Shown piece after piece: positions 13,254 to 43,370 of a stretch of DNA of 64,000 nucleotides. The DNA lies in assembly GCA_016840515.1 (NCBI GenBank), contig JAEOSF010000005.1, forward strand, positions 34,948 to 98,947, given 5' to 3'. Every line of letters starts with the position of its first letter. Position 1 is the stretch's first letter. A program made the position numbers and the translations under genes. The notes beneath the pieces are model-generated. The model ran no database searches. It saw nothing but the letters and a program-made list of their open reading frames with translations, and was not told the DNA's origin. The stretch is from Candidatus Borrarchaeum yapensis (GTDB taxonomy: Archaea; Asgardarchaeota; Sifarchaeia; Borrarchaeales; Borrarchaeaceae).

Positions 13254-13608
13254 TTCTTATACGCTCCTCCGTTTTGTGAGGATAATGTCTTCAATAGTTA
13301 TTGTAAACTAAGTTTATTTGTTGTATCAACTTCAAACTCTATAAAACTATAATTTCAAACTATATAAAACTATAAATTATTTATAAAATATTTGTAGAAA
13401 AGCAGTTCTTCAATCTTATTCCTCTAAATTAAATTAAAACTCTTATAAGAGGGATTCTATAAACTGTATAAAATATCACGGCTGCGTAAAACCGCTCTAA
13501 CGGATCTAATGTGAATCACCTCCAGCTTTACATAATAAAAATATCCATCCATAAATTTGTAAGATTTTGCTTTGGAATTAGGTGTATAATAAGACTTTTA
13601 TACCGTAA

Positions 13609-13725
13609 TGAGGTGGTCGCACCTAAGGTAGGCATATCCTCCTAATGGATTTTTATAAAGTCTATCTCTCCTTGACTTGATCCTTGGGTATGCCTACCTT
13701 CATCGACTAAAGAGAGTACCATCTT
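13609..13725 (+). ncRNA. Structured intergenic element copy A (15-bp closing stem, conserved pyrimidine-rich core)
   Basis: Hairpin AGGTG-GTCG-CACCT (13611-13624); stem AAGGTAGGCATATCC (13625-13639) / GGGTATGCCTACCTT (13686-13700); core TCTATCTCTCCTTGACTTGATCC (13661-13683). Confidence 0.6.
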
Positions 13726-13961
13726 CTTACATTTTGAAACAAATGACCCCTCATCGTTATGGGAATTAACCATAAGGCATGTCTACAAAAAAAATAACAG
13801 TTTTTGAGTCCAGTTAATCAGTTTAGACTTTTGATATGTTGTTAATTAAATGAAGTAAATCAATTAGATTGAACAATACGGTTTGTGCGAAGACTGCTTC
13901 TATACAAGGTCTTTTATATAATAATGAAGAAAGGTAAAGCCGTTATTGAGGGATACTTGCC

Positions 13962-17188: not shown

Positions 17189-18130
17189 TTGTTAAGATTT
17201 GAAAAGCCACAAAAAATATTTAAAATCGGCAATGTTGAGCTTGGAGGACAACCTGGAGAATTACCTACTGTATTGATTGGTAGCATCTTTTTTTATTTCG
17301 ACAAAATCGTTGAAGATAAACATAAGGGCATTTTTAAGAAAAAAGAAGCAAAGCAATTAATCAATAAAGTAGATCATCTATCCTCCATAACAGGAAATCC
17401 GTATATAATTGATATAGAGGCAATTACAAATACTGCAATTGAAAAATACATAAATTTTATTTCTGAAACAACTGAGGCACCCTTTTTTGTAAATAGCACA
17501 AATGTTCCAGTTAGACTTCATGGTATCAATTATGTAAATGAAATTGGCCTCATCGATAGAGCAATCTATGCTTCTATAAATTTCACGGCAGAACAAAAGG
17601 AATTTGATGTGTTAACGCAGGCAAAAGTCGAGAATGTATTAGTTCAAGCTTTCAATCCTAAAAACCCATTTACTAAGGGAATGATGAAAATGATGCAAGA
17701 GGGCTTTGATGGAGAAGGACTGGTAGATAAAGTAATCAGGGTGGGACTAAAAAAACCCCTCCTTTTTGCAAATGTCTATGATGTGCCAAGTATTGGTGTT
17801 GGCAGTGAAACCGTCTATATGTTAAAAAAGGAGTTTGGGTTGCCAAGTGGGACAGCCCCAGTAGGTGTCGTAGGAATTTGGGGAAAGACCGAAAAAGCTA
17901 AAGACATTTCTTCAAATATAAGTAGTATTTGTGGAGCAAACGCTGCTTCCTTCGCTAAACTCAAAGGATCTGATTTTATCCATTACGGCTCTTTGAAGAG
18001 GTCCGATAAAATTTTCCCAGCAGTTTCCATGATCGATGCGATAATAGCATATAATGCAAACTTATCCGGAATCAAGCCAATGAATGTAACACCAGCTTTA
18101 CGAGATTTTTTAGCAGCGTCAAAAGAATAG
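17189..18130 (+). CDS. MtrH-like tetrahydro(methano)pterin/corrinoid methyltransferase, paralogue 1
   Basis: 'FEKPQKIFKIGNVELGGQPGELPTVLIGSIFF' N-terminus shared with MtrH family. Confidence 0.88.
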   Translation: MLRFEKPQKIFKIGNVELGGQPGELPTVLIGSIFFYFDKIVEDKHKGIFKKKEAKQLINKVDHLSSITGNPYIIDIEAITNTAIEKYINFISETTEAPFFVNSTNVPVRLHGINYVNEIGLIDRAIYASINFTAEQKEFDVLTQAKVENVLVQAFNPKNPFTKGMMKMMQEGFDGEGLVDKVIRVGLKKPLLFANVYDVPSIGVGSETVYMLKKEFGLPSGTAPVGVVGIWGKTEKAKDISSNISSICGANAASFAKLKGSDFIHYGSLKRSDKIFPAVSMIDAIIAYNANLSGIKPMNVTPALRDFLAASKE

Positions 18131-21535: not shown

Positions 21536-22003
21536 TTATTCATTCTCTCTTTTTTTCATCGAAAGTACACAATTACGAAATTGCTCATATTGTTTTTTCG
21601 AAATTATGCCAATTAATGCACCTTCATCATCGACTACACCAAGTCTGTTTATCTCGTTCTTTTCAAAATGACTCGCAACATCTTTGACTTTATCGCTTGA
21701 AAATACAGATGATACCGGTGATGACATGACATCTTTTACAATAACTTCGCAAGGATTATGTCCTTCTGAAATTAACGCAAATATTGCTTTACTAGTAACA
21801 ATGCCAACCGGTTTATTACCTTCTGCAACAAGAATGGTGTCAATCCCGTGATTTATCATTAATTCTGCAACCTTGCATAAGGTTTCTTCAGGAGCGCATG
21901 TAACCAAATCTATAACCATATCTACTGCTAAAGGCTCGATTCTAACTACTTTTTCTTCGTTTTCTTCTCCTCTTATATCTTCGAAACTCATTTTTTTCAC
22001 CAA
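21536..22003 (-). CDS. CBS-domain-pair protein
   Basis: Two CBS repeats: 'AELMINHGIDTILVAEGNKPVGIVTSKAIF' and 'ASHFEKNEINRLGVVDDEGALIGIISKKQY'. Confidence 0.85.
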   Translation of the reverse strand: MVKKMSFEDIRGEENEEKVVRIEPLAVDMVIDLVTCAPEETLCKVAELMINHGIDTILVAEGNKPVGIVTSKAIFALISEGHNPCEVIVKDVMSSPVSSVFSSDKVKDVASHFEKNEINRLGVVDDEGALIGIISKKQYEQFRNCVLSMKKRENE

Positions 22004-22101
22004 ATTACAGTTAAGATAATTTATTTTTGCTAAAGTGATCTAAGAAATAGAACATATATCTGTTTTAAAAATAAAAAAAAAGGGGTACTAGGTCAAACCT
22101 T

Positions 22102-23364
22102 TTAGAACGGTTTTCCAACTCTTTTTATTTCAGCGGTGCTTTCAGTAGGTTGAAGTGCTTCCACATCAATTGGGAATGTACCGTATTCCATTACCTTTCT
22201 GATAAGGTATTTGTATCTTTGCGGGGTACACGCTGGACCTACCGTGTCCAGTTTAACAGAAATGGCACCGCCACCTGGTGCTGTATCTCTTATATGCCTT
22301 CTTACGCGTTCGTCCAAGATTTCCAGCGAGGAATAATTAATGGTTTCAGCGTCTGTTCCGACAACGAAGAGTTTGTTGTTTTTCCTAGAAATGGCTTTAG
22401 CAGCAGCTAAATCGGCAATTCGTGTGTCCATTCCGTACATGAAAATAATGAATCCACTATTATCCATATAATGCTGCCAAAATTCTTTCCAGTCGTCAAC
22501 ACATTCGTAGAATCGGAATACACCCCAGTTGTCATAGTTATTCTTCTTTATAACCTTCATCGTTGAAGGCATGGCGTATTTTTCCCAGTTCGTTAGACCG
22601 ATCAGTGGTACGTCACATGCAGCCGCCCACATGAAAGGTAACAGAGTTGGAGCAGTGTCCTTTACGACATCTTCGTATTGAAACTTCCCATAATCGGTTG
22701 CAATGTCTCCAAAGAAATCTAAGGCTTTCCACAAGAATTCAGGATCCTTACGTGCCCATTTAATAAGCCTTGTGAATCCCATGGTCTTGAATCCAATGTC
22801 CCAAGGGGTAATGTGGAAGTAGAATGGCGTAATCATGCCAGGTAATGTTTTGAACATCGTCTTCAATATGCCAGCCCAATAAGGTCCTCTAGCCTCTGTA
22901 CTTAGGTCGGGTACCCTTAATTTGTCAAGGTCTGCCTTGTTTTTGATTATTTCTCCATCTGGAGCTACACACGGATAACTCCATATCGGTTTAAGTAGTT
23001 TGCATCCTAGCGCTTCAGCCTCAATGTTATATACGTCGAAGTCAGCCTGCGGAAACTCATTCTTCACATTGTCTACAACCCAATATTGACCCGCTACCAG
23101 TTTCTTATAACTGTAGCACGCCTCAAGGAGTTGTATATTTGCGTGATGTGCGGCAAATGTTTCCATGAGCCCTGTAGGGCCTGGTATTCGCCATCTAGGT
23201 TCTTTATTGCTTGCAAGTCTGGCTACTGCTTCAGCTGGTGTCTCAGGATATTTGTTTATTCTAGCCGTAATGTTTGCTGCGTGTTTTTCAATACGTGCTT
23301 CAAATTCTGGCTCTGGTTTGTCTTCGAATACTTTCTCACCAAATATAGTTTCTCCAAAACCCAT
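22102..23364 (-). CDS. UroD/MtaA-family corrinoid methyltransferase (possible O-demethylase type)
   Basis: 420 aa UroD-like pattern; 'IRDTAPGGGAISVKLDTVGPACTPQRYKYLIRKVMEYGTFP'; translationally next to a corrinoid protein. Confidence 0.78.
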   Translation of the reverse strand: MGFGETIFGEKVFEDKPEPEFEARIEKHAANITARINKYPETPAEAVARLASNKEPRWRIPGPTGLMETFAAHHANIQLLEACYSYKKLVAGQYWVVDNVKNEFPQADFDVYNIEAEALGCKLLKPIWSYPCVAPDGEIIKNKADLDKLRVPDLSTEARGPYWAGILKTMFKTLPGMITPFYFHITPWDIGFKTMGFTRLIKWARKDPEFLWKALDFFGDIATDYGKFQYEDVVKDTAPTLLPFMWAAACDVPLIGLTNWEKYAMPSTMKVIKKNNYDNWGVFRFYECVDDWKEFWQHYMDNSGFIIFMYGMDTRIADLAAAKAISRKNNKLFVVGTDAETINYSSLEILDERVRRHIRDTAPGGGAISVKLDTVGPACTPQRYKYLIRKVMEYGTFPIDVEALQPTESTAEIKRVGKPF

Positions 23365-23379
23365 TTTTACATACCTCCT

Positions 23380-24027
23380 TTACATAGTACCTACTAGTCT
23401 CTTGCACTCAATTACTGCATCGCCTGCGTCTCTGCCGAACCCATCTGCATCGTATTGGATTATCATATCACGATACGCTCCAGCGCCACCGAGTATGTAT
23501 TTTACATCATCCCTAACTCCGGCATCTCTAAGTGCCTTTTCAATTTGTGGGAATTCGGTATCAGCTGTTGATGTTGAATAGGCAGAGGCCCCGATTATAT
23601 CTGGCTTGTTTTCTTTTACAGCAGCAACGAAAGCCTCAGGGGATACATCCTGTCCCAGGTCAACGACTTTAAATCCAGCGCCTCTCAGAAATGCTGCGAC
23701 AAGATTTTTTCCAATATCATGGACATCTCCTCGCACAACTCCAAGAACTATTGTCCCAAGGTATTTGGCACCTGCTTTTTCCAAATCAGGGAGTACTACA
23801 GCCATGGCTTTTTTCGCTGCTTCAGCACACATGATTAGGTCCGCAATAAAGTATTCTCTTTTCTCAAGTTTGTCCCCTGCAGCAGTCAAAGCAGTTTTCA
23901 TCGCGTTTAAAACATCTAACGGTGAAGCTCCTGCACTAACTGCAGCTTTTGCTAATGCTCCCGCTTCGTCGTCTTCTCCTTCTATAATCGCACCCTCAAG
24001 TCGGGTGAGCTCTACTTTTACGGTCAT
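23380..24027 (-). CDS. Corrinoid methyltransferase protein (MtaC/MtbC-like)
   Basis: 'GTIVLGVVRGDVHDIGKNLVAAFLRGAGFKVVDLGQDVSPEAFV' (DVHDIG). Confidence 0.93.
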   Translation of the reverse strand: MTVKVELTRLEGAIIEGEDDEAGALAKAAVSAGASPLDVLNAMKTALTAAGDKLEKREYFIADLIMCAEAAKKAMAVVLPDLEKAGAKYLGTIVLGVVRGDVHDIGKNLVAAFLRGAGFKVVDLGQDVSPEAFVAAVKENKPDIIGASAYSTSTADTEFPQIEKALRDAGVRDDVKYILGGAGAYRDMIIQYDADGFGRDAGDAVIECKRLVGTM

Positions 24028-24028
24028 T

Positions 24029-24057
24029 TATCTATCTCTCCTTGTTTTGATCCATTC
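24029..24057 (-). promoter_or_regulatory. Corrinoid-protein leader/RBS matching the complement of the A/B/C element core (copy D)
   Basis: Minus strand GGATCAAAACAAGGAGAGATAGATAA-ATG; SD AAGGAG 10 nt from ATG; 21/23 identical to the reverse complement of 13661-13683. Confidence 0.75.
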
Positions 24058-24416
24058 TCCTTAATTTTTTTTGGTGGACTTCTTGTTAAAGAAGCCCATT
24101 TCGTATAATAAGCTATAATATTCATCATTCTAGTATAAATAGTTTATTAGAAATTAACAACTTTTTATTATTTAAAATATATTTTACTATAACAAAGGAA
24201 TAGAGATTCTCTAATTTCAAACGAAGACAGACTGAACGCTAATTTAAATCAAAATAGTCTCATTTCCGAAAATGAATCCAATAATATATCTCTTGAAATC
24301 GCGCTCGAGATTGGGAAACATCTACCAGAGAAAAATTATATATAGATAGAAGTTCCTACTAAAAAATTATAAATCAAGTAATATTTTTTTAAAATACTAG
24401 AAATACGCTCAAATAA

Positions 24417-30137: not shown

Positions 30138-30213
30138 CAACTATTTTAATTTAAAGAGTTTAAATCTGGATTTTTCTTTTATTGCGAGCGCGAACAATCG
30201 AAAACTATATATA

Positions 30214-30345
30214 TTCCTAGGCTAGGATAACCTAGCCTAGGTAGACATCTTTCCTAATATTCTGATTATATATTCTATCTCTCCTTAATCTCCTTTTGAT
30301 CCAGAAAGGTGCCTACCTCATTAACTTACGTAAAGTGCCATTATG
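30214..30345 (+). ncRNA. Structured intergenic element copy B (upstream of ECF transporter operon)
   Basis: Perfect 11-bp hairpin CCTAGGCTAGG-ATAA-CCTAGCCTAGG (30216-30241); stem GGTAGACATCTTTC (30240-30253)/GAAAGGTGCCTACC (30304-30317); core TCTATCTCTCCTT...TTTTGATCC (30274-30302). Confidence 0.62.
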
Positions 30346-30415: not shown

Positions 30416-31927
30416 ATGAAACCGCTTATTCATGTCGAGAACTTTTCTTACTGGTATTCCGACACAGAGAAACCTGCATTAAAAGAACTTAATCTGAAGA
30501 TCAATAAAGGTGAGCGTTTACTAATTGTTGGACCCAGCGGATGCGGTAAGTCAACATTAATATTATGTATAAGCGGATTAATCCCGCACTCGTATTCGGA
30601 AGGGAAAATAAAAGGCAATATCACTGTTGGAAGTGAAAATCTCCATAGAACACCTCCTTATCACTTAAAAAACAAAGTTGGCGTTGTACTTCAAAATCCG
30701 TCGGCGCAACTATTTTCTCTAAAGATTAAAGATGAAGTAGCGTTCGGTCCGCAGAATTTAGGATTGCCTCCTGAGGAAATACAAGAAAGAGTTTATTTTG
30801 CACTTGAAGCAGTAGGAATGGAGAAATTTGCCGAAAACCCATTGACAGAACTATCAATGGGACAGCAACAGAGAGTCTGTATTGCGTCTATGCTTGCTTT
30901 TCGTCCAGCTATAATGGTTTTTGATGAGCCCACCTCAAATATTGACCTTAAAACAGGTAGAAAAATACTAGCATTAATCGATCAAATCAGTGAAAATCAA
31001 AATATCACTGTTATAATTGCAGAGCATAGGACAAAAGAAGTTAGTAAAATTACCGATCGGGTTATTGTTCTAAATCGTGGAGAAATTGTTGCAGATGATC
31101 CTCAAATATTAACAGACACAAAATTTTGTAATACTTATGGAATACAACCTTTGAATACGACTATATACCCCTTACTCCAATCCAATATTACTAATGGATC
31201 CAAAATCTTGCAAGTAGAAAATCTTACATTCTCCTATAATAATCACTCCGTTTTAACTGACCTTTCATTTTCAATTTTTGAGAGAGAATCCCTAGGAATA
31301 ATGGGTGACAATGGATCTGGAAAAACAACTCTTGCACTTATTTTAGCAGGCGTTCTTAAGCCAAAACAAGGCTCTATAATGATTGATGGAAAGCCTATAG
31401 GGAACTATAAACGTAAACAAGCAATAAGGAAAATCGGTGTGCTCTTTCAAAACCCAGACGATAATATTCTGACGACCAAGGTTTCAAATGAAATTCTATA
31501 CGCACCTTGGATTCAAAGATTGAGTGAGGATGAGAAGAAAAAGCTTTTAAACGAAAATCTCGCTTTAATGAATCTTAAGGGTTATGATAACAAAGGTACT
31601 TTCAAAATAAGTTATGGGGAAAGAGAAAGGGTTGCAATTGCTTCATTATTAGTATCGCAACCGGATATTTTGATTTTCGATGAGCCTACAACTGGACAAG
31701 ACTATAAGCACAAACAAGATTTCATCAGATTGGCTCAAAAATTGAATGAAACACACACATTGATTACAATCTCACATGATTTAGAATTTCTTAGCGCAAT
31801 ATCAAATAGGGTTCTCTTATTAGAAAGCGGGAAAATAATGGTTACTCACATTAACAAAAACATGGCACAAAAACATTCTAGGCAAATTCCGACTGAAAGT
31901 GTGCAACTTCCCACAGTAGAAAATTGA
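30416..31927 (+). CDS. ECF transporter double ATPase (CbiO-like, two ABC domains)
   Basis: Two Walker A ('GPSGCGKSTLI', 'GDNGSGKTTLA') and two signature regions ('LSMGQQQRVCIASML', 'ISYGERERVAIASLL'). Confidence 0.93.
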   Translation: MKPLIHVENFSYWYSDTEKPALKELNLKINKGERLLIVGPSGCGKSTLILCISGLIPHSYSEGKIKGNITVGSENLHRTPPYHLKNKVGVVLQNPSAQLFSLKIKDEVAFGPQNLGLPPEEIQERVYFALEAVGMEKFAENPLTELSMGQQQRVCIASMLAFRPAIMVFDEPTSNIDLKTGRKILALIDQISENQNITVIIAEHRTKEVSKITDRVIVLNRGEIVADDPQILTDTKFCNTYGIQPLNTTIYPLLQSNITNGSKILQVENLTFSYNNHSVLTDLSFSIFERESLGIMGDNGSGKTTLALILAGVLKPKQGSIMIDGKPIGNYKRKQAIRKIGVLFQNPDDNILTTKVSNEILYAPWIQRLSEDEKKKLLNENLALMNLKGYDNKGTFKISYGERERVAIASLLVSQPDILIFDEPTTGQDYKHKQDFIRLAQKLNETHTLITISHDLEFLSAISNRVLLLESGKIMVTHINKNMAQKHSRQIPTESVQLPTVEN

Positions 31928-31941
31928 GAAGGGCGAGATAA

Positions 31942-32772
31942 GTGCAGAATAGTTTAAATTTTAGTTCATCAAGCTTGGATCCAAGAGTTAAGTTGATAGC
32001 TTCGATGTCCTTCTTAATGCTAATAAGTACAATTCACGATGCGCTTATTCTATTTATTTCATTTATCGCCGTCCTTTGCGCTTGGCTATTAGCAAAGTTA
32101 CCTATTAAGACCGTTAGTTACTTTTTAAAAAGTATCGCGTTACTTTTTGCTTTTATGTTCCTTTCTTCAACAGTATTTTCAAGAATTGCTCCTAAAGAAC
32201 GCTTAACGTTCATAGAAGTAATTCCCGCAGTGATTCCAATAATAGGTGGTTCTGGAATCTACGCTGAGATTCTTCTTGCTTCAATTACATTTTCATTCAG
32301 AACATTATCATTAGTTTCAATGGCCCTATTGGTTTCTCTTACCACAGAACCCAGTAGAATGGTTAGTGCACTTAGAAAACTTCGTTGTCCTTATGAGCTA
32401 ACAATCATGGTGATTATTACGATTCGTTTTATTCCATTAGCAATTGAACAATGGAAAAAGTTAGCAGCAGTTGCAAATGTTCGAGGAATAGCGACAAGTG
32501 GCATAATAGGACGCATTAAATCAATAAAACGATTGTTTACACCTTTAATTATACATTCGATACGTCGAAGTATGCAATTGGCGTATTCTCTAGATGCAAG
32601 AGGTTTCCGAGCAACAAAAAATCCAACAACAATGGAGAACCTTCAATTAGGAAGTAGAGATTATCTCATGTTGGTTTTTTCTGTCCTTCTGGTTGCTTTA
32701 TCTATAATAGTCTTGCTTGAAGTCTTTTCTATTCAGAATATTAGCGTAGAGTTACTGAAATTAGTAGTATGA
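31942..32772 (+). CDS. ECF transporter T component (CbiQ-like)
   Basis: Membrane protein with 'AAVANVRGIATSG' and 'AYSLDARGFRA' ECF-T Ala-Arg-Gly motifs. Confidence 0.87.
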   Translation: MQNSLNFSSSSLDPRVKLIASMSFLMLISTIHDALILFISFIAVLCAWLLAKLPIKTVSYFLKSIALLFAFMFLSSTVFSRIAPKERLTFIEVIPAVIPIIGGSGIYAEILLASITFSFRTLSLVSMALLVSLTTEPSRMVSALRKLRCPYELTIMVIITIRFIPLAIEQWKKLAAVANVRGIATSGIIGRIKSIKRLFTPLIIHSIRRSMQLAYSLDARGFRATKNPTTMENLQLGSRDYLMLVFSVLLVALSIIVLLEVFSIQNISVELLKLVV

Positions 32773-32791
32773 AAATTAAGGAGGTGAAATA

Positions 32792-33394
32792 GTGACAATG
32801 GAAACTGAGCAAGAAAAAGGATTTTTCAAACGGTTTGCTACATTTGATTTAGTTGTCATTGCAATTTTTGTTGGCGTCTGGTATGGTGTGCAACAAATAT
32901 GGTTTATTGGGCTAGCAGCTATACCGGCCCCGCTTAGCTGGGTTGTATCTGTTATAGTTTATGAACTTTTAGCAATGACTCTTGTACTGCTCGCAGCTAC
33001 AATAATAAGAAAGGGAGGAACAGTTTTTCTTATCTTCTTTCTCCATGGGCTTCTTGAAGTAGTTTTATTCCCAAATATTTTTTCAGTAATCGGTCTAGCA
33101 TCTGATATTTTACCTGGAGCATTAATAGAGGCTTTCTTCTATATCACTGGTGGATATCCTAATAATTCTCTAAAAGCAGGCATCGGTGCGTGCTTAAGAG
33201 CAGTTGTGTTCTATCCATTCCAGCTGGGTTTGCTAACAATTACGTATCCTGAGTATGTTGCGTTTGTAGAATTCTTCTTTGGTGTACCCTACGGCGTGTT
33301 TATTGTTTTAAACGTGATTGTTGGTGTAATTTTTGGATTTGTTGCAGGTATAATTGGATATAGGATCGGACTTAAAGTGAAAGAGGCAATATGA
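32792..33394 (+). CDS. ECF transporter substrate-specific (S) component
   Basis: Six-TM-like 200 aa protein directly after ATPase and T component. Confidence 0.78.
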   Translation: MTMETEQEKGFFKRFATFDLVVIAIFVGVWYGVQQIWFIGLAAIPAPLSWVVSVIVYELLAMTLVLLAATIIRKGGTVFLIFFLHGLLEVVLFPNIFSVIGLASDILPGALIEAFFYITGGYPNNSLKAGIGACLRAVVFYPFQLGLLTITYPEYVAFVEFFFGVPYGVFIVLNVIVGVIFGFVAGIIGYRIGLKVKEAI

Positions 33395-33442
33395 TGATAT
33401 TATTGCCCTTTCTTTTTATTAATATTCATCAAGGGTGAAATA

Positions 33443-34552
33443 ATGCGTCCGCGTAAACCTCTAATAGGATTGAAGGCAAGCACTCATGGTGGCAAGTTTT
33501 GGCACTATAAGAAAAACCCCAATGCACAAGCAATAGAAATAATAGATTTCAGTGCTAGTATAAACCCTATTGGACCCCCAGAATCCGTTATAGAAGTGAT
33601 AAGACAAAATTTGCATAATCTGTCACATTATCCGGATTCTCATTCAATAGAACTTAAAAAGGAACTTGCCAAGATTTACAATCTACATGAGGAAAATCTG
33701 ATAGTTGGGAATGGCTCGAATGAACTGATAAGATTATTTGCAGAGACATTTTTTGAAGAGGGCGACGAAGTAATTATTCCCATTCCGACTTTTGACGAAT
33801 ATACGGTTGCGACAGAATTCATGGGCGCACTTCCTATATTTGTAGAATTGAAATCTCCTGATTTTATTGTTAATTCAAGTGATATAATTGCAAAAATAAC
33901 CGATAAAACCAAAGCTATTTTTCTATGCAATCCAAACAATCCTACTTCAAAATTGATGCCGCCAGATGAACTTCAAAGCATTGTCGAAAACGCTAATGAA
34001 AAACAGGTTCTCGTTTTTCTCGATGAAGTTTTCATAGACAGCACAGAAAAAGGTGTAAGTTATGCCATCAGAGTTACACAACATACAAATGTCTTTGTAA
34101 TTCACTCGCTCACCAAAATATTTGCTATACCAGGACTTAGAGTCGGGTATGGAATAGGATCTAAGGAATTAATCTCATATATGAGCCGCGCCAAACTTGA
34201 ATGGAACGTAAACTATTTAGCACAAGTAGCAGCAATTGCGGCTTTAAAGGATATATCTTATCTAGAAAAATCTAAGGAACTCTTCTATAAACAAAAAAGA
34301 TTTCTTATGGAGAACTTAGCAAAAATAAGAGGGCTTAAGACGGAATTACCAGATGCAAATTATTTTTTTGTTGATGTTAGTGGAACTGGTTTAACAGGAA
34401 CTCGTCTTGAACAGGAACTAAGGGAACTCGGCATTTTAGTAAGAAATTGCTCGTCATTTAAGTCCCTGGGTGATAATCATATTCGAATTGGAATAAGAAC
34501 TGAAAAAGAGAATAAACGCCTCTTAGGTGCGCTTAATCAAATTATTCAATAG
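33443..34552 (+). CDS. PLP aminotransferase fold, CobD-like threonine-phosphate decarboxylase / HisC family
   Basis: 'IDFSASINPIGPPESVIEVIRQNLHNLSHYPDSHS', 'NGSNELIRLFAETF', 'HSLTKIFAIPGLRVGYGIG'. Confidence 0.82.
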   Translation: MRPRKPLIGLKASTHGGKFWHYKKNPNAQAIEIIDFSASINPIGPPESVIEVIRQNLHNLSHYPDSHSIELKKELAKIYNLHEENLIVGNGSNELIRLFAETFFEEGDEVIIPIPTFDEYTVATEFMGALPIFVELKSPDFIVNSSDIIAKITDKTKAIFLCNPNNPTSKLMPPDELQSIVENANEKQVLVFLDEVFIDSTEKGVSYAIRVTQHTNVFVIHSLTKIFAIPGLRVGYGIGSKELISYMSRAKLEWNVNYLAQVAAIAALKDISYLEKSKELFYKQKRFLMENLAKIRGLKTELPDANYFFVDVSGTGLTGTRLEQELRELGILVRNCSSFKSLGDNHIRIGIRTEKENKRLLGALNQIIQ

Positions 34553-34583
34553 AGTAAATTCATAATAAAGAAGGTGAAATCTG

Positions 34584-35240
34584 TTGAGAGTTTTTGTTTC
34601 TTGGAGCGGTGGTAAAGAAAGTAGCTTGGCGTTATTTAGAGCTCTGAAAACCGGTTTACATGTTGAATTCCTATTTAACATGCTTGACGAAGACGGTTTA
34701 CGGTCTAGAGGTCATGGTTTAAGAAAAGAAATTATTGATGCACAAGCTAAAGCAATTGGAATTCCAATAGTTTATGGGAGGGCTTCTTGGGAAGATTATG
34801 AACGAGAATTTAAGAGAAGAATTAAGGAACTGAGGAATAGAGGCATCGAAAGCGGAGTATTTGGAGACATAGATTTTCAGGAAAACAGAGATTGGGTCGA
34901 GAAGGTTTGTGAAGAAGCTGAACTCGATGTTTTTGAACCGTTATGGAAGCAAAAATACGAAAATCTACTAATGGAATTCATAAATAATGGTTTTGAAGCC
35001 AAAATTATCAGCGTTAAATCTGATCTTATACATGACGACTGGATAGGACATCCCCTTAACTGGGAATTTATAGATTACCTCAGAAGCCGAGAAATCGATT
35101 TGTGTGGCGAAAATGGTGAATATCACACCCTTGTAACTAATGGTCCATTCTTCCAGCGGCGTATAGAAATAGTAGCGAGTAAAAAAGTTGTGAAAGACGA
35201 CCGATTGCTTCTTGAGATAGAGGATTTTAACTTAATCTAG
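34584..35240 (+). CDS. PP-loop ATP-binding protein (diphthine-ammonia ligase-like), paralogue of 45899..46537
   Basis: 'SWSGGKESSLALFRAL', 'LRSRGHGLRKEIIDAQAKAIGIPI', 'CGENGEYHTLVTNGP'. Confidence 0.85.
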   Translation: MRVFVSWSGGKESSLALFRALKTGLHVEFLFNMLDEDGLRSRGHGLRKEIIDAQAKAIGIPIVYGRASWEDYEREFKRRIKELRNRGIESGVFGDIDFQENRDWVEKVCEEAELDVFEPLWKQKYENLLMEFINNGFEAKIISVKSDLIHDDWIGHPLNWEFIDYLRSREIDLCGENGEYHTLVTNGPFFQRRIEIVASKKVVKDDRLLLEIEDFNLI

Positions 35241-35257
35241 TAGGGGGTAAAAAACAC

Positions 35258-36205
35258 TTGCAAGAACAAAGTATAAAGAAGTATACAGACGAAATTTTAA
35301 GAGTTTTTAATGAAGTCATTCAAGATTATTATGCCGATGCTTTCCTGCTTTCAGGTGGTCTTGATACTTCAATTGTAGCAGCTTTAGTTAGCCGATATTT
35401 TAAGCCGATTACTCTTTCAGTTGGTTTTTCTGATAGCGACGCACCTGATCTCTATTATGCAAAAATAGTTGCTGACCGGTTTTCATTTCAAAACTTTGTT
35501 AAACTTTTTACCCTTGAGGAAGCTGCTAAGGCTGCAGAATATGTAATTAAAACGCTTAGAACATTCGATCCAATGGAAATTAGAAATGACATAACAATCT
35601 ATATCGGTTTGAAATATCTAAAAGAGCTTGGTGTTAAATCAGTCCTCACCGGTGATGGAGGCGATGAACTCTTCGCAGGCTATTCTTTCATGTTTGAACT
35701 AGAACCCCGCGATGTAGATAAATGGATAACTGAGGGTGTAGAACGTTGGTCTTTTTCTGCTAAGCCTATAAGTGAAAGTTTAGGATTAAGGGTATTCCAG
35801 CCTATTCTTGACGAAAGAATAATCGATTTAGCACTTAAGATTCCTGCTGAACTCAAAATAGCAGAACGTAACGGAGTAACTCATGGAAAATACATACTAA
35901 GAAAAGCGTTTGAAGAGATTTTATCTCCAGATGTTGTATGGAGGCCCAAGTATCCGATAGAAGCAGGAAGCGGAAGCACAAATCTAAGTACAATATTTCG
36001 TATTGAAACGGAAGAATTCAATGATTTGTCCAAGATTGTTCCTTTAGATAGTCAAGAACAAGCTTATTATTTCAAGATATATCGTGAGATGGTTGGCGAG
36101 ATACCTCCTCCCATTGATAACGAGAAAATGTGCCCAAGATGTGGCGGAGGGGTTCCAATAAATAAGAATTACTGTAAAATATGTGGTGTCTATCCTGTAG
36201 GATAA
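35258..36205 (+). CDS. Asparagine synthase-like PP-loop protein with C-terminal zinc ribbon
   Basis: 'AFLLSGGLDTSIVAALVSRY', 'LTGDGGDELFAGYSFM', C-terminal 'CPRCGGGVPINKNYCKICG'. Confidence 0.85.
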   Translation: MQEQSIKKYTDEILRVFNEVIQDYYADAFLLSGGLDTSIVAALVSRYFKPITLSVGFSDSDAPDLYYAKIVADRFSFQNFVKLFTLEEAAKAAEYVIKTLRTFDPMEIRNDITIYIGLKYLKELGVKSVLTGDGGDELFAGYSFMFELEPRDVDKWITEGVERWSFSAKPISESLGLRVFQPILDERIIDLALKIPAELKIAERNGVTHGKYILRKAFEEILSPDVVWRPKYPIEAGSGSTNLSTIFRIETEEFNDLSKIVPLDSQEQAYYFKIYREMVGEIPPPIDNEKMCPRCGGGVPINKNYCKICGVYPVG

Positions 36206-36227
36206 AAAAACTTAATGGGGGTTTAAA

Positions 36228-37289
36228 ATGAACTTATTAAAGAAAACAATAAACCAAATCCTACTAATTAAAAATGAGTTTAAAACAAAGACACAAGAAC
36301 GACTTGATGCTCTTACAAAACCGCTTGGTTCTCTTGGAATGCTAGAAGAAATCGCTAAAGATGTATTGGCGATAACTGAAAATGAAGAGTATCAGATGAA
36401 GAAGAAAGTCATTTTTGTACTAGCAGGAGATCACGGAGTAGTCAAAGAAAGTGTTACGGGGTATCCTCAAGAGGTTACACCACAGATGGTATACAATTTC
36501 GTGAGAGGTGGAGCTGCCATTAACGTATTGGCAAGGCATGTTGATGCTAAAGTCGTAGTAGTAGATATGGGGGTTGCAGCCGATCTTAATGAAGCTTCTG
36601 GCAAAATTATCAATAAGAAAATCAATTATGGCACAAAAAATTTTGCTGAAGACCATGCTATGTCTAAAGATGAGGCAATTAGATCTATTGAAGCGGGAAT
36701 TGAGGTATTTGAGCAAGAGGCTAAGAATGGTATTGATATAGTTGGTTGTGGAGATATGGGCATTGGCAATACAACTACAAGTTCTGCAATAGTAGCTGCC
36801 CTTACAGGAGCACCCGTTGAACAAGTAACAGGCCGGGGAACGGGTATTGACGATGAAATGCTAGCACACAAAATCGACGTAATAAAAAAAGCCTTGGCGA
36901 AGCATAATCCTGATATTACTGATCCTATTGATGTCCTATCGAAAGTTGGAGGCTTTGAAATTGGCGGCATTGCTGGTGTAGTTTTAGCCGCAGCAGCACA
37001 TAAGATACCTATTTTACTAGACGGATTTATTTCTAGCGCTGGTGCTTTAATAGCATATAAATTACAGCCAAATATAAAAGATTATTTCATAGCCTCCCAT
37101 TTATCGGTAGAGTGTGGCCATCAAATCATTCTAGAAACGTTTAATAAAAGGCCACTTTTAAATCTTGATCTCAGACTAGGTGAAGGAACAGGTACCGCAT
37201 TAGCAATGCCATTAGTCGAAGCAAGCATAAAAATTCTCAACGAGATGGCTACCTTTGCCGATGCAGGTGTTAGTGAAAGAACTAGCTAG
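36228..37289 (+). CDS. cobT: Nicotinate-nucleotide:dimethylbenzimidazole phosphoribosyltransferase
   Basis: 'RLDALTKPLGSLGMLEEIAKDVLAI', 'AGDHGVV', 'GDMGIGNTTTSSAIVAALTGAPVEQVTGRGTGI', 'RLGEGTGTALAMPLVEASI'. Confidence 0.95.
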   Translation: MNLLKKTINQILLIKNEFKTKTQERLDALTKPLGSLGMLEEIAKDVLAITENEEYQMKKKVIFVLAGDHGVVKESVTGYPQEVTPQMVYNFVRGGAAINVLARHVDAKVVVVDMGVAADLNEASGKIINKKINYGTKNFAEDHAMSKDEAIRSIEAGIEVFEQEAKNGIDIVGCGDMGIGNTTTSSAIVAALTGAPVEQVTGRGTGIDDEMLAHKIDVIKKALAKHNPDITDPIDVLSKVGGFEIGGIAGVVLAAAAHKIPILLDGFISSAGALIAYKLQPNIKDYFIASHLSVECGHQIILETFNKRPLLNLDLRLGEGTGTALAMPLVEASIKILNEMATFADAGVSERTS

Positions 37290-37312
37290 ATCTTATATTA
37301 TAGGCGTTTGGA

Positions 37313-38527
37313 ATGGATCTCATGAACCAAAATAAGTTCTTTATCATATTAATTGATAGTTTGACTCAAAATGATCTTCAAAAATGCCCGCAGTTATCCA
37401 ATCTGAAAAATAACGCGATGCATTTCCCAAATGCACAGACGATCTTTCCATCGCTTACATTTTCGTCAATTTCAAGTATGCTCACAGGCTTGCCGCCAAA
37501 TAAGCATGGTATAATCGGTAATTTCTATGATAGAACTCAAAAAAAGAAAATGCTTTTTCAGGACGTAAGAAATTGGGATCCAAATGCGATAGCGACAGAA
37601 ACTATCTTTGAAATAGCTAGTAAAAATGGTTTAAGAACGATTATGATCACTGGTTTTGCCGTAGGAAGAATCTGTGGCAGAGGTGCAGACATAATCCTGG
37701 AACCTACCTACATCAAATATGAGGATATAGCCTCATTTCCATTTGAAGTACCTTTATCGAAGGTACCCTATTGGATAAGAGAACAGATAGACGATTCTTA
37801 TTCTTTTCATGTTGACGATGTTAATGATCCTCTCGGGCAAAAATATGTTGACAACCCAGACATCTGGGTTATGCAATTAGCAAAACAAGCGATTAAAAAT
37901 GAGGCTGGTGATTTATTCCTATTTCATTTTCCTTATCTAGACTTTTTAAAGCACTATTATGGTAAGGATTCAACAGAAGTTAATAATCATCTTTCATTAT
38001 TGGAAAAAATTATAGAAGAACTCCTTTCATACATTATGAATAAGTACGACTCTCCAGTTATTTTTGTAATGAGCGACCATGGGTCAACAGAAGTTACGGA
38101 GAGAATAACACTTCCGATTGAGGATAACTCTGCAATTATAATTAGAAATGGGGGACTCTCTTATTTGTATTCTGAATCAAATTCACTCATCAATGAGATT
38201 CAACACAAAATTCTGTCTTCTTTTGGATCTAAAGTTGAATTTGTTGCACGCCCTCACGAACTGAGTCCATACTATGTTGTTACTAAAGACATCGGCGATC
38301 TTACTGTATGTTTTAAGGGAGGAGTTACAGATTCTCACTATGCAAAAGCAATTCATGGATCCCTTTCGTCTTCTGATATGGGAATTTTCTTATCGCTTAT
38401 TGGGAGTAATTTATCTAAAGGATTCCATGAAAACGGAAACATCCTGAATATAGCCCCTACCATAGCAGAGATTCTTAACATCTCATTTTCTAACAAAACA
38501 AAGGAGCGTAAAGACTCATTACTTTAA
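37313..38527 (+). CDS. Alkaline-phosphatase superfamily protein (type I phosphodiesterase/nucleotide pyrophosphatase-like)
   Basis: 'FFIILIDSLTQNDL...NAQTIFPSLTFSSISSMLTGLPPNKHGIIGNFYDR', 'FVMSDHGSTEV'. Confidence 0.82.
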   Translation: MDLMNQNKFFIILIDSLTQNDLQKCPQLSNLKNNAMHFPNAQTIFPSLTFSSISSMLTGLPPNKHGIIGNFYDRTQKKKMLFQDVRNWDPNAIATETIFEIASKNGLRTIMITGFAVGRICGRGADIILEPTYIKYEDIASFPFEVPLSKVPYWIREQIDDSYSFHVDDVNDPLGQKYVDNPDIWVMQLAKQAIKNEAGDLFLFHFPYLDFLKHYYGKDSTEVNNHLSLLEKIIEELLSYIMNKYDSPVIFVMSDHGSTEVTERITLPIEDNSAIIIRNGGLSYLYSESNSLINEIQHKILSSFGSKVEFVARPHELSPYYVVTKDIGDLTVCFKGGVTDSHYAKAIHGSLSSSDMGIFLSLIGSNLSKGFHENGNILNIAPTIAEILNISFSNKTKERKDSLL

Positions 38528-41823: not shown

Positions 41824-41984
41824 TAATCGGACCTCTTAATCAATCGAACAGTAGCATTTCAAATCTTGACGTCGTATTTAATCGCATAGGGTTTCAGAAT
41901 CGACATTGTAAACGTTATGGCAAGTTTCTGGCATGTCGTTCTTTTTATGCGATTACAGAGAATATATCATATTTATATATTTGA

Positions 41985-42085
41985 AGTAGGATATATTAAC
42001 CTAGGTCTCTAATATTCATTCTATCTCTCCTTGTATTTAGATCCAGAGCAGAATCCAACGTCATTGACAAATGGAAATAGCCTCC
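41985..42085 (+). ncRNA. Structured intergenic element copy C (more degenerate)
   Basis: CTAATATTC...TTCTATCTCTCCTTGTATTTAGATCCAGAG (42010-42048), weak closing pair GTAGGAT/ATCCAAC, followed by TCATTGAC as in A/B. Confidence 0.5.
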
Positions 42086-42158
42086 TTTAATGATTGGATA
42101 CAGTATAAGCTCTAAGGCTTTACAGAAAAGATTTAAGGGATTTTGGAAGCGCATAGAC

Positions 42159-43370
42159 ATGAAGAAATTTCTTTTTATTGTTGGAGATGGAATGGCGGAT
42201 AGAACATCGGAAATACGAAGTTTTACTCCGTTAGAATGGGCGAATACTCCAAATATGGATTACATAGCAGCGGAAGGAATCAACGGTCTTTTAAATGCAA
42301 TAGCGCCTGGAATAGCCCCAGGGAGCGCAGAAGCACATCTTTCTATGCTCGGATATGACTATACCAAAATTAAAAATGGAAGAGGTTTTTTTGAAGCTTT
42401 AGGTGCAGGTCTGATCCCCATGATTGGTGATATCGTATTTAGATGCAATTTTGCAACGATAAACAAAGAGTTCGATATTATTGATGCACGTGCAGGAAGA
42501 ATTAGAGAAAGAGTTGGAATATTAGCAGATTTGATCAAAAGAGAATTGAATGAAATTGATAGTGTAGAATTATTATTTCAAGAAAGTCTAGACTTTAGAG
42601 GTTCTTTAATTTTAAGAGGTAAAAACTGTTCCTCAGAAGTTATTTGCCCAAAGATCATGCAAAATGGTGAAAAAGCTATAATTAAACCTGTAAATGATTC
42701 AAAGAGTGCCATAAGGACTACAAAGATCTTAAATGAGTTCATAGAAACATCATATGAACTACTTCGTGATCACTCAATAAATGTAACTCGTAAAACACAA
42801 AACAAGTTCCCTGCAAATGTGGTGATTCCCTGGAAGGGAGGATATGTTTCAGATTTAAGAGCTCCTCCTAATAACTGGAACTTGAAAGGAGCGTGTGTAG
42901 GCGCAGTTAGTTTAATTAAAGGCCTTTGCAAATTTATCAACATGACAGTTGTTGATGTGCCCGAAGCTACTGGATACATAGATACAAATGTTTATGCCAA
43001 AGCTAGTGCTGCTTTAAATCTTCTAGAAGATCACGATTTGGTTTTGCTTCATATAGAGGGACCCGATGAAGCAGGTCACGATGGAGATTTCGAAGGGAAG
43101 GTGGAAATAATTGAAAAAATAGATTGTATGGTGGGATTGCTTCTTGATCAAATTGCCTGGGAAGAACTTTATATCATTCTCGTGTCAGATCACGCCACCC
43201 CTGTAGATTATAAGGATCATACAGCCGATCCAACACCAATCTCAATTTATGGAACTAAAATAAAAAAAGACAAAGTAAAAGCATTTAACGAGAAAGCAGC
43301 TTCAAAAGGAGGTCTATCAAGAATTTGCGGGGAAAGAATAATGCCCCTTCTTTTTGATTTGACAAAATGA
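42159..43370 (+). CDS. apgM: Archaeal cofactor-independent phosphoglycerate mutase (ApgM-like)
   Basis: 'MKKFLFIVGDGMADR', 'APGSAEAHLSMLGYD', 'HIEGPDEAGHDGDFEGKVEIIEKID', 'LVSDHATPVDYKDHTADP'. Confidence 0.88.
   Translation: MKKFLFIVGDGMADRTSEIRSFTPLEWANTPNMDYIAAEGINGLLNAIAPGIAPGSAEAHLSMLGYDYTKIKNGRGFFEALGAGLIPMIGDIVFRCNFATINKEFDIIDARAGRIRERVGILADLIKRELNEIDSVELLFQESLDFRGSLILRGKNCSSEVICPKIMQNGEKAIIKPVNDSKSAIRTTKILNEFIETSYELLRDHSINVTRKTQNKFPANVVIPWKGGYVSDLRAPPNNWNLKGACVGAVSLIKGLCKFINMTVVDVPEATGYIDTNVYAKASAALNLLEDHDLVLLHIEGPDEAGHDGDFEGKVEIIEKIDCMVGLLLDQIAWEELYIILVSDHATPVDYKDHTADPTPISIYGTKIKKDKVKAFNEKAASKGGLSRICGERIMPLLFDLTK

Follow-up and report, generated by a model that had tools for sequence, protein, structure and literature searches.

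Introduction

Regulatory RNAs of the RyhB type are made when a cofactor or metal is limiting and repress the proteins that use it; they are bacterial, Fur-controlled and Hfq-dependent, and their likeness to the arrangement that we describe here in Borrarchaeum is one of logic only. A similar logic operates in Listeria monocytogenes, where the antisense RNA AspocR (Rli39) reduces the expression of a B12-dependent pathway under B12 shortage. AspocR is, however, a long RNA under the control of a B12 riboswitch (PMC8079631), whereas the Borrarchaeum window, by which we mean the whole 64,000-nt stretch of DNA that was analyzed, has no riboswitch match. The closest archaeal parallels come from Methanosarcina mazei. 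There, the intergenic RNA sRNA154 folds into a stable stem-loop whose anti-RBS loop masks the RBS of its targets, which are nif and gln mRNAs in nitrogen regulation (PMC5867862). Its likeness to the elements that we call A and B is by description, and the Borrarchaeum arrangement differs in that the same loop is also found in two mRNA leaders. A second M. mazei RNA, sRNA162, acts through RBS masking in the gene circuit of corrinoid methyltransferases, as is proposed here; it targets the mRNA of an ArsR-type regulator through a single-stranded linker (PMC3510493), whereas the predicted target in Borrarchaeum is the corrinoid-protein mRNA itself. Set beside RNAs of the sRNA154/sRNA162 type, the Borrarchaeum elements share complementarity to an RBS on an mRNA encoded in trans, and they present it in an accessible loop or linker. 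A limited literature search returned no description of an RNA-based regulatory circuit in Asgard archaea, and RBS masking of this kind directed at a corrinoid protein would be new for an Asgard archaeon.

Results

The window genome is congeneric with that of the Asgard archaeon Candidatus Borrarchaeum weybense. On the + strand of the window, a two-box pattern, TCTATCTCTCCTT-N-GATCC, occurs four times: in elements A (13661), B (30274) and C (42020) and, at 24031, antisense to the RBS of a corrinoid-protein gene (Table 1). A genome-wide pattern search recovered exactly these four occurrences, all inside the window, and in the samples on which our leader statistics are based (331 kb of the window genome and 454 kb of Ca. 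B. weybense) both boxes were seen at the same four loci only. The chance expectation, taken from 100 shuffles, was 0 matches at up to 3 mismatches. All copies have the 13-nt core and GATCC in common, but not the full 23 nt, and the spacer between the boxes measures 2, 5, 7 or 11 nt.

The sequence-only reading had proposed that the loops of the elements complement the RBS in the mRNA for the corrinoid protein, and the matches on which it relied were all recovered. The core of A (+ strand 13661-13683, TCTATCTCTCCTTGACTTGATCC), compared with the antisense strand of the corrinoid-gene leader, bears out the complementarity at 21 of 23 positions; C matches that antisense strand over 15 uninterrupted nt, B over 13 + 9 nt flanking an insertion, and the duplex spans the Shine-Dalgarno sequence AAGGAG. 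Coordinates and leader sequence agree as well, the minus-strand leader reading GGATCAAAACAAGGAGAGATAGATAA-ATG with the start codon at 24027..24025. We rejected the idea that the site is a generic RBS: GGAGAGATAG is no general RBS of either genome, and GGAGAGAT is absent from every other RBS region sampled. The motif is likewise missing from the other corrinoid genes inspected.

Table 1. Coordinates of the elements, their predicted promoters and the genes around them.
Feature	Position	Strand	Remarks
Predicted TATA box of A	13593..13604	+	Top 0.15% of window positions; kept in Ca. B. weybense
Element A, stem-loop	13625..13700	+	Arms 13625-13639 / 13686-13700
Element A, loop	13661-13673, 13679-13683	+	Core TCTATCTCTCCTT, GATCC
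B12-binding protein with C-terminal ArsR-type winged helix	14665..15828	-	Beside A; candidate regulator
MtaA-like methyltransferase	22102-23364		Next after corrinoid gene
Corrinoid protein, MtbC/MtgC/MtaC type (target gene)	23380..24027	-	B12-binding_2 and B12-binding domains
Putative target site in corrinoid mRNA leader	24031..24053	-	GGATCAAAACAAGGAGAGATAGA; covers Shine-Dalgarno AAGGAG 24043-24038
Hairpin in corrinoid leader	24076..24097	-	Upstream of target site; paired in both species (sequence and fold)
Predicted TATA box of B	30202..30213	+	Top 0.10% of window positions; kept in Ca. B. weybense
Element B, stem-loop	30239..30318	+	Arms 30239-30253 / 30304-30318; kept in Ca. B. weybense
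Element B, boxes	30274-30286, 30298-30302	+	Core, GATCC; leader of ECF-transporter/cobamide-salvage operon
Operon downstream of B	30416..38527	+	ECF ATPase, EcfT/CbiQ-like, 200-aa protein, aminotransferase, Diphthami_syn_2, Asn_synthase, CobT (DBI_PRT), phosphodiesterase
Predicted TATA box of C	41968-41979	+	Top 0.06% of window positions
Element C, shortened paralogue of B	42000..42081	+	Core 42020-42032, GATCC 42040-42044
apgM-like gene	42090-43370		Element C is its leader

The three elements are paralogous to one another. With a fixed matrix built from the textbook archaeal consensus, their best + strand TATA-like sites are positioned for an RNA to start at the 5' arm and fall within the top fractions of window positions given in Table 1; transcription from the + strand, which the antisense proposal calls for, is thus predicted for all three. 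We discarded a matrix trained by EM, which had drifted toward a T-rich motif. The claim that the core is held apically in a stable stem holds well for A, which folds far better than its shuffles (z -6.4), and more weakly for B (z -2.7), and in both elements the + strand outperforms the minus strand relative to shuffles. The A/B stem has about 15 pairs; across four sequences 91.7% of its cells are paired and 3 pairs have changed on both sides, a two-sided count that was matched by 102 of 500 shuffles. Folding of element C gave no long or comparably stable stem. The core lies in the apical loop in A and B, where opening its 11-nt part costs 0.1-4.1 kcal/mol; that part opens cheaply in B and C (0.1-0.3 kcal/mol), and opening the full core in A costs 7-8 kcal/mol.

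The gene that follows A encodes DUF1638 in the window genome and a Met_synt_B12-like protein in Ca. B. weybense. Since A is kept despite this difference, and since the DUF1638 gene of the window genome carries its own predicted TATA, A is probably a free-standing small RNA; its 3' end, at a guess, lies somewhere near 13737. Between the A TATA box and the predicted start there is an inverted repeat (13611-13624, AGGTGGTCGCACCT), mostly kept in the sister species. The corresponding interval of B, between its TATA box and predicted start, contains a palindrome at 30216-30241, CCTAGGCTAGG-ATAA-CCTAGCCTAGG, both arms of which are altered in concert in Ca. B. weybense (CTAGGGTAGG/CCTACCCTAG); it is possibly an operator or the product of template switching.

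A, B and C lie near genes of vitamin-B12 salvage and C1 metabolism. In the operon downstream of B, the 200-aa protein has no Pfam match and is possibly the S component. Opposite C lie CbiB, CbiZ, CobS and a CobY-like gene, with a good minus-strand TATA-like site at 42113-42102. The minus strand of C (42000-42050), in the possible CbiB leader, reads as an RBS and an ATG with a very short open frame, and the CbiB mRNA could therefore carry the same target-like sequence. Beside A, the winged-helix B12-binding protein has a full-length match in two Borrarchaeum genomes only, among the 59 genomes searched, and in Ca. B. weybense its gene is divergent from the corrinoid gene; it is possibly an archaeal B12-sensing regulator.

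All four loci are kept in Ca. B. weybense. The corrinoid/MtaA-like block (21543-24192) is inverted there relative to the window, as is the MtrH gene (17189-18130). The corrinoid leader of that species (GGATCAAAACTAGGAGAGATAGA) is identical at 22 of 23 motif bases amid diverged flanks, and its element C differs by one base. The complementarity that the sequence-only reading expected relatives to preserve has not been lost in Ca. B. weybense, which retains the target site, and that site is the top-ranked partner in both species. Compensatory loop-target changes between the two species number none, and the N5 spacer shows no covariation; two changes in Ca. B. weybense weaken the pairing, one in C (T to C) and one in the corrinoid leader (A to T).

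Beyond this species pair the system was not recovered. Among 98 related genomes, the exact pattern with its flanking stem is present only in Ca. B. weybense, at A and B. Neither the elements nor a close corrinoid orthologue were found in three further, incomplete genomes, two from the genus and one from the class. Scanning 84,980 species genomes for the pattern returned 94 matches, against about 97 expected by chance on our own estimate. Of these loci, 80 (all but the 14 loci L108-L121) were scanned with a covariance model, and a convincing score was obtained in Ca. B. weybense only. Two candidates from relatives in the phylum were set aside, one (G065) being a pattern match lacking the flanking stem and the other (G026) reaching E 0.83 only.

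Ranking of leaders as pairing partners singled out the corrinoid gene. For all six A, B and C loops of the two species its leader came first, among 259 sampled leaders in the window genome and 370 in Ca. B. weybense, the latter set including the corrinoid leader added by hand after a simple ORF caller had missed it. The loop-leader duplexes reach -26 to -33 kcal/mol, where the mean is close to -10 (z -4.1 to -6.9). Opening the target site costs 0.3 kcal/mol in the window genome and 6.4 in Ca. B. weybense.

Discussion

We suggest that A, B and C belong to an antisense circuit that masks the corrinoid RBS and lowers corrinoid-protein synthesis when cobamide-acquisition RNAs are made, a reading to which we assign an even chance. 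Computation shows a complementarity that is conserved in two species and unique in the genome, a stem in A and B, and TATA boxes placed for the + strand; that such RNAs exist and repress translation by pairing is what we infer. The three would be 5'-end RNA elements transcribed from the + strand, A acting as a free-standing small RNA and B and C as leaders of cobamide-acquisition mRNAs; their pyrimidine-rich core, UCUAUCUCUCCUU...GAUCC, would pair in trans with the RBS of the corrinoid mRNA and block its translation. Transcription of the genes for cobamide uptake and salvage would then be accompanied by reduced synthesis of a cofactor-consuming protein, a form of cobamide sparing for which the trigger would presumably be cobamide limitation. 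The arrangement, retained in full by Ca. B. weybense, is probably a small regulatory circuit that couples the supply of B12 to its use. The antisense claim is helped by the predicted + strand transcription, the A/B stem and the conserved, top-ranked target; the loop-target pairing itself stands as supported rather than proved, because loop and target show no compensatory changes. Further findings count against it: only two genomes carry the system, two changes in Ca. B. weybense weaken the pairing, the stem covaries at a few pairs only (a number that shuffles also reach), the full core of A and the target of Ca. B. weybense are costly to open, and C is stemless and has a good TATA on the opposite strand as well.

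The same boxes could be read as DNA. A transcription factor would bind GGATC-N-AAGGAGAGATAGA, whichever way round it lies, in the promoters or leaders of four corrinoid-related loci, and its most likely candidate would be the B12-binding winged-helix protein encoded beside A, a regulator that combines B12-binding and HTH domains near the sites, as a CarH-like operator calls for. All four loci are corrinoid- or C1-related, and conservation of the boxes without covariation is what an operator would produce. We nevertheless judge this reading, the main rival to antisense pairing, unlikely, if worth keeping in sight. A box distance ranging from 2 to 11 bp shifts the helical phase, and spacing so variable (2-11 nt) is tolerated better by RNA pairing than by one rigid protein site; the motif lacks dyad symmetry and shows neither the fixed-spacing nor the dyad site expected near a promoter; the corrinoid site overlaps the RBS, a good way downstream of where the promoter is predicted; and the long RNA stem kept around the box in A and B is left unaccounted for.

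Nor do A, B and C fit easily as purely cis-acting leaders of cobamide and C1 genes, either small riboswitches or protein-bound RNAs, in which the core would work in cis only and the corrinoid match would be secondary. B and C do precede cobamide-related genes and occupy the 5' end of their predicted transcripts, and the B core of Ca. B. weybense can base-pair with the Shine-Dalgarno sequence downstream of it. Pairing with the element's own downstream gene is unremarkable, however (B ranks 18th among 259 leaders and, in Ca. B. weybense, 95th among 369; C ranks worse), and sequestration of the own RBS was rejected as the main role on this ground. Rfam gave no family at gathering score anywhere in the window and no cobalamin family at E <= 5 around A or B, and the only matches to known riboswitch or RNA families, at B, were weak and probably due to chance. 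With A lacking a conserved downstream gene and no explanation offered for the inverse copy that is conserved in the corrinoid leader, we consider a cis-only role improbable. Less probable still, to the point of being hard to sustain, is that a fragment of A, B or C was copied inversely into the corrinoid leader, or arose there by chance, and has no function in that place. The sequence-only reading had offered a duplicated leader region as the simpler alternative, and the clear paralogy of A, B and C does indicate that copying has occurred in the lineage. The corrinoid leader, however, shares only the two boxes with the elements, in inverse orientation and between dissimilar flanks, and 22 of its 23 motif bases are kept between species whose flanks have diverged, where the chance expectation is 0. 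On this analysis, RBS masking in trans is the most economical reading, and sRNA154 and sRNA162 of M. mazei offer precedents for it.

A more specific version of the RBS-masking proposal can be put forward tentatively, and we hold it to be possible but doubtful: a cofactor-sparing RNA circuit in which duplication carried one anti-RBS loop into both a free-standing RNA and the leaders of cobamide-acquisition mRNAs, these mRNAs thereby acting in trans as silencers of a corrinoid consumer. If true, supply and use of B12 would be joined in a circuit that works by base pairing, with no detectable riboswitch and with mRNA leaders acting in trans, and a route would be suggested by which genes with linked functions can come to share one anti-RBS loop through its duplication. 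The proposal also defines an RNA pair that is testable in vitro.

A short frame on the minus strand, ATGGATCAAAAC... (24032-24055), overlaps the target site in both species; it reads MDQNKER / MDQN and then meets a TAG stop. Reading of TAG as pyrrolysine has been reported for this class (PMC9723677).
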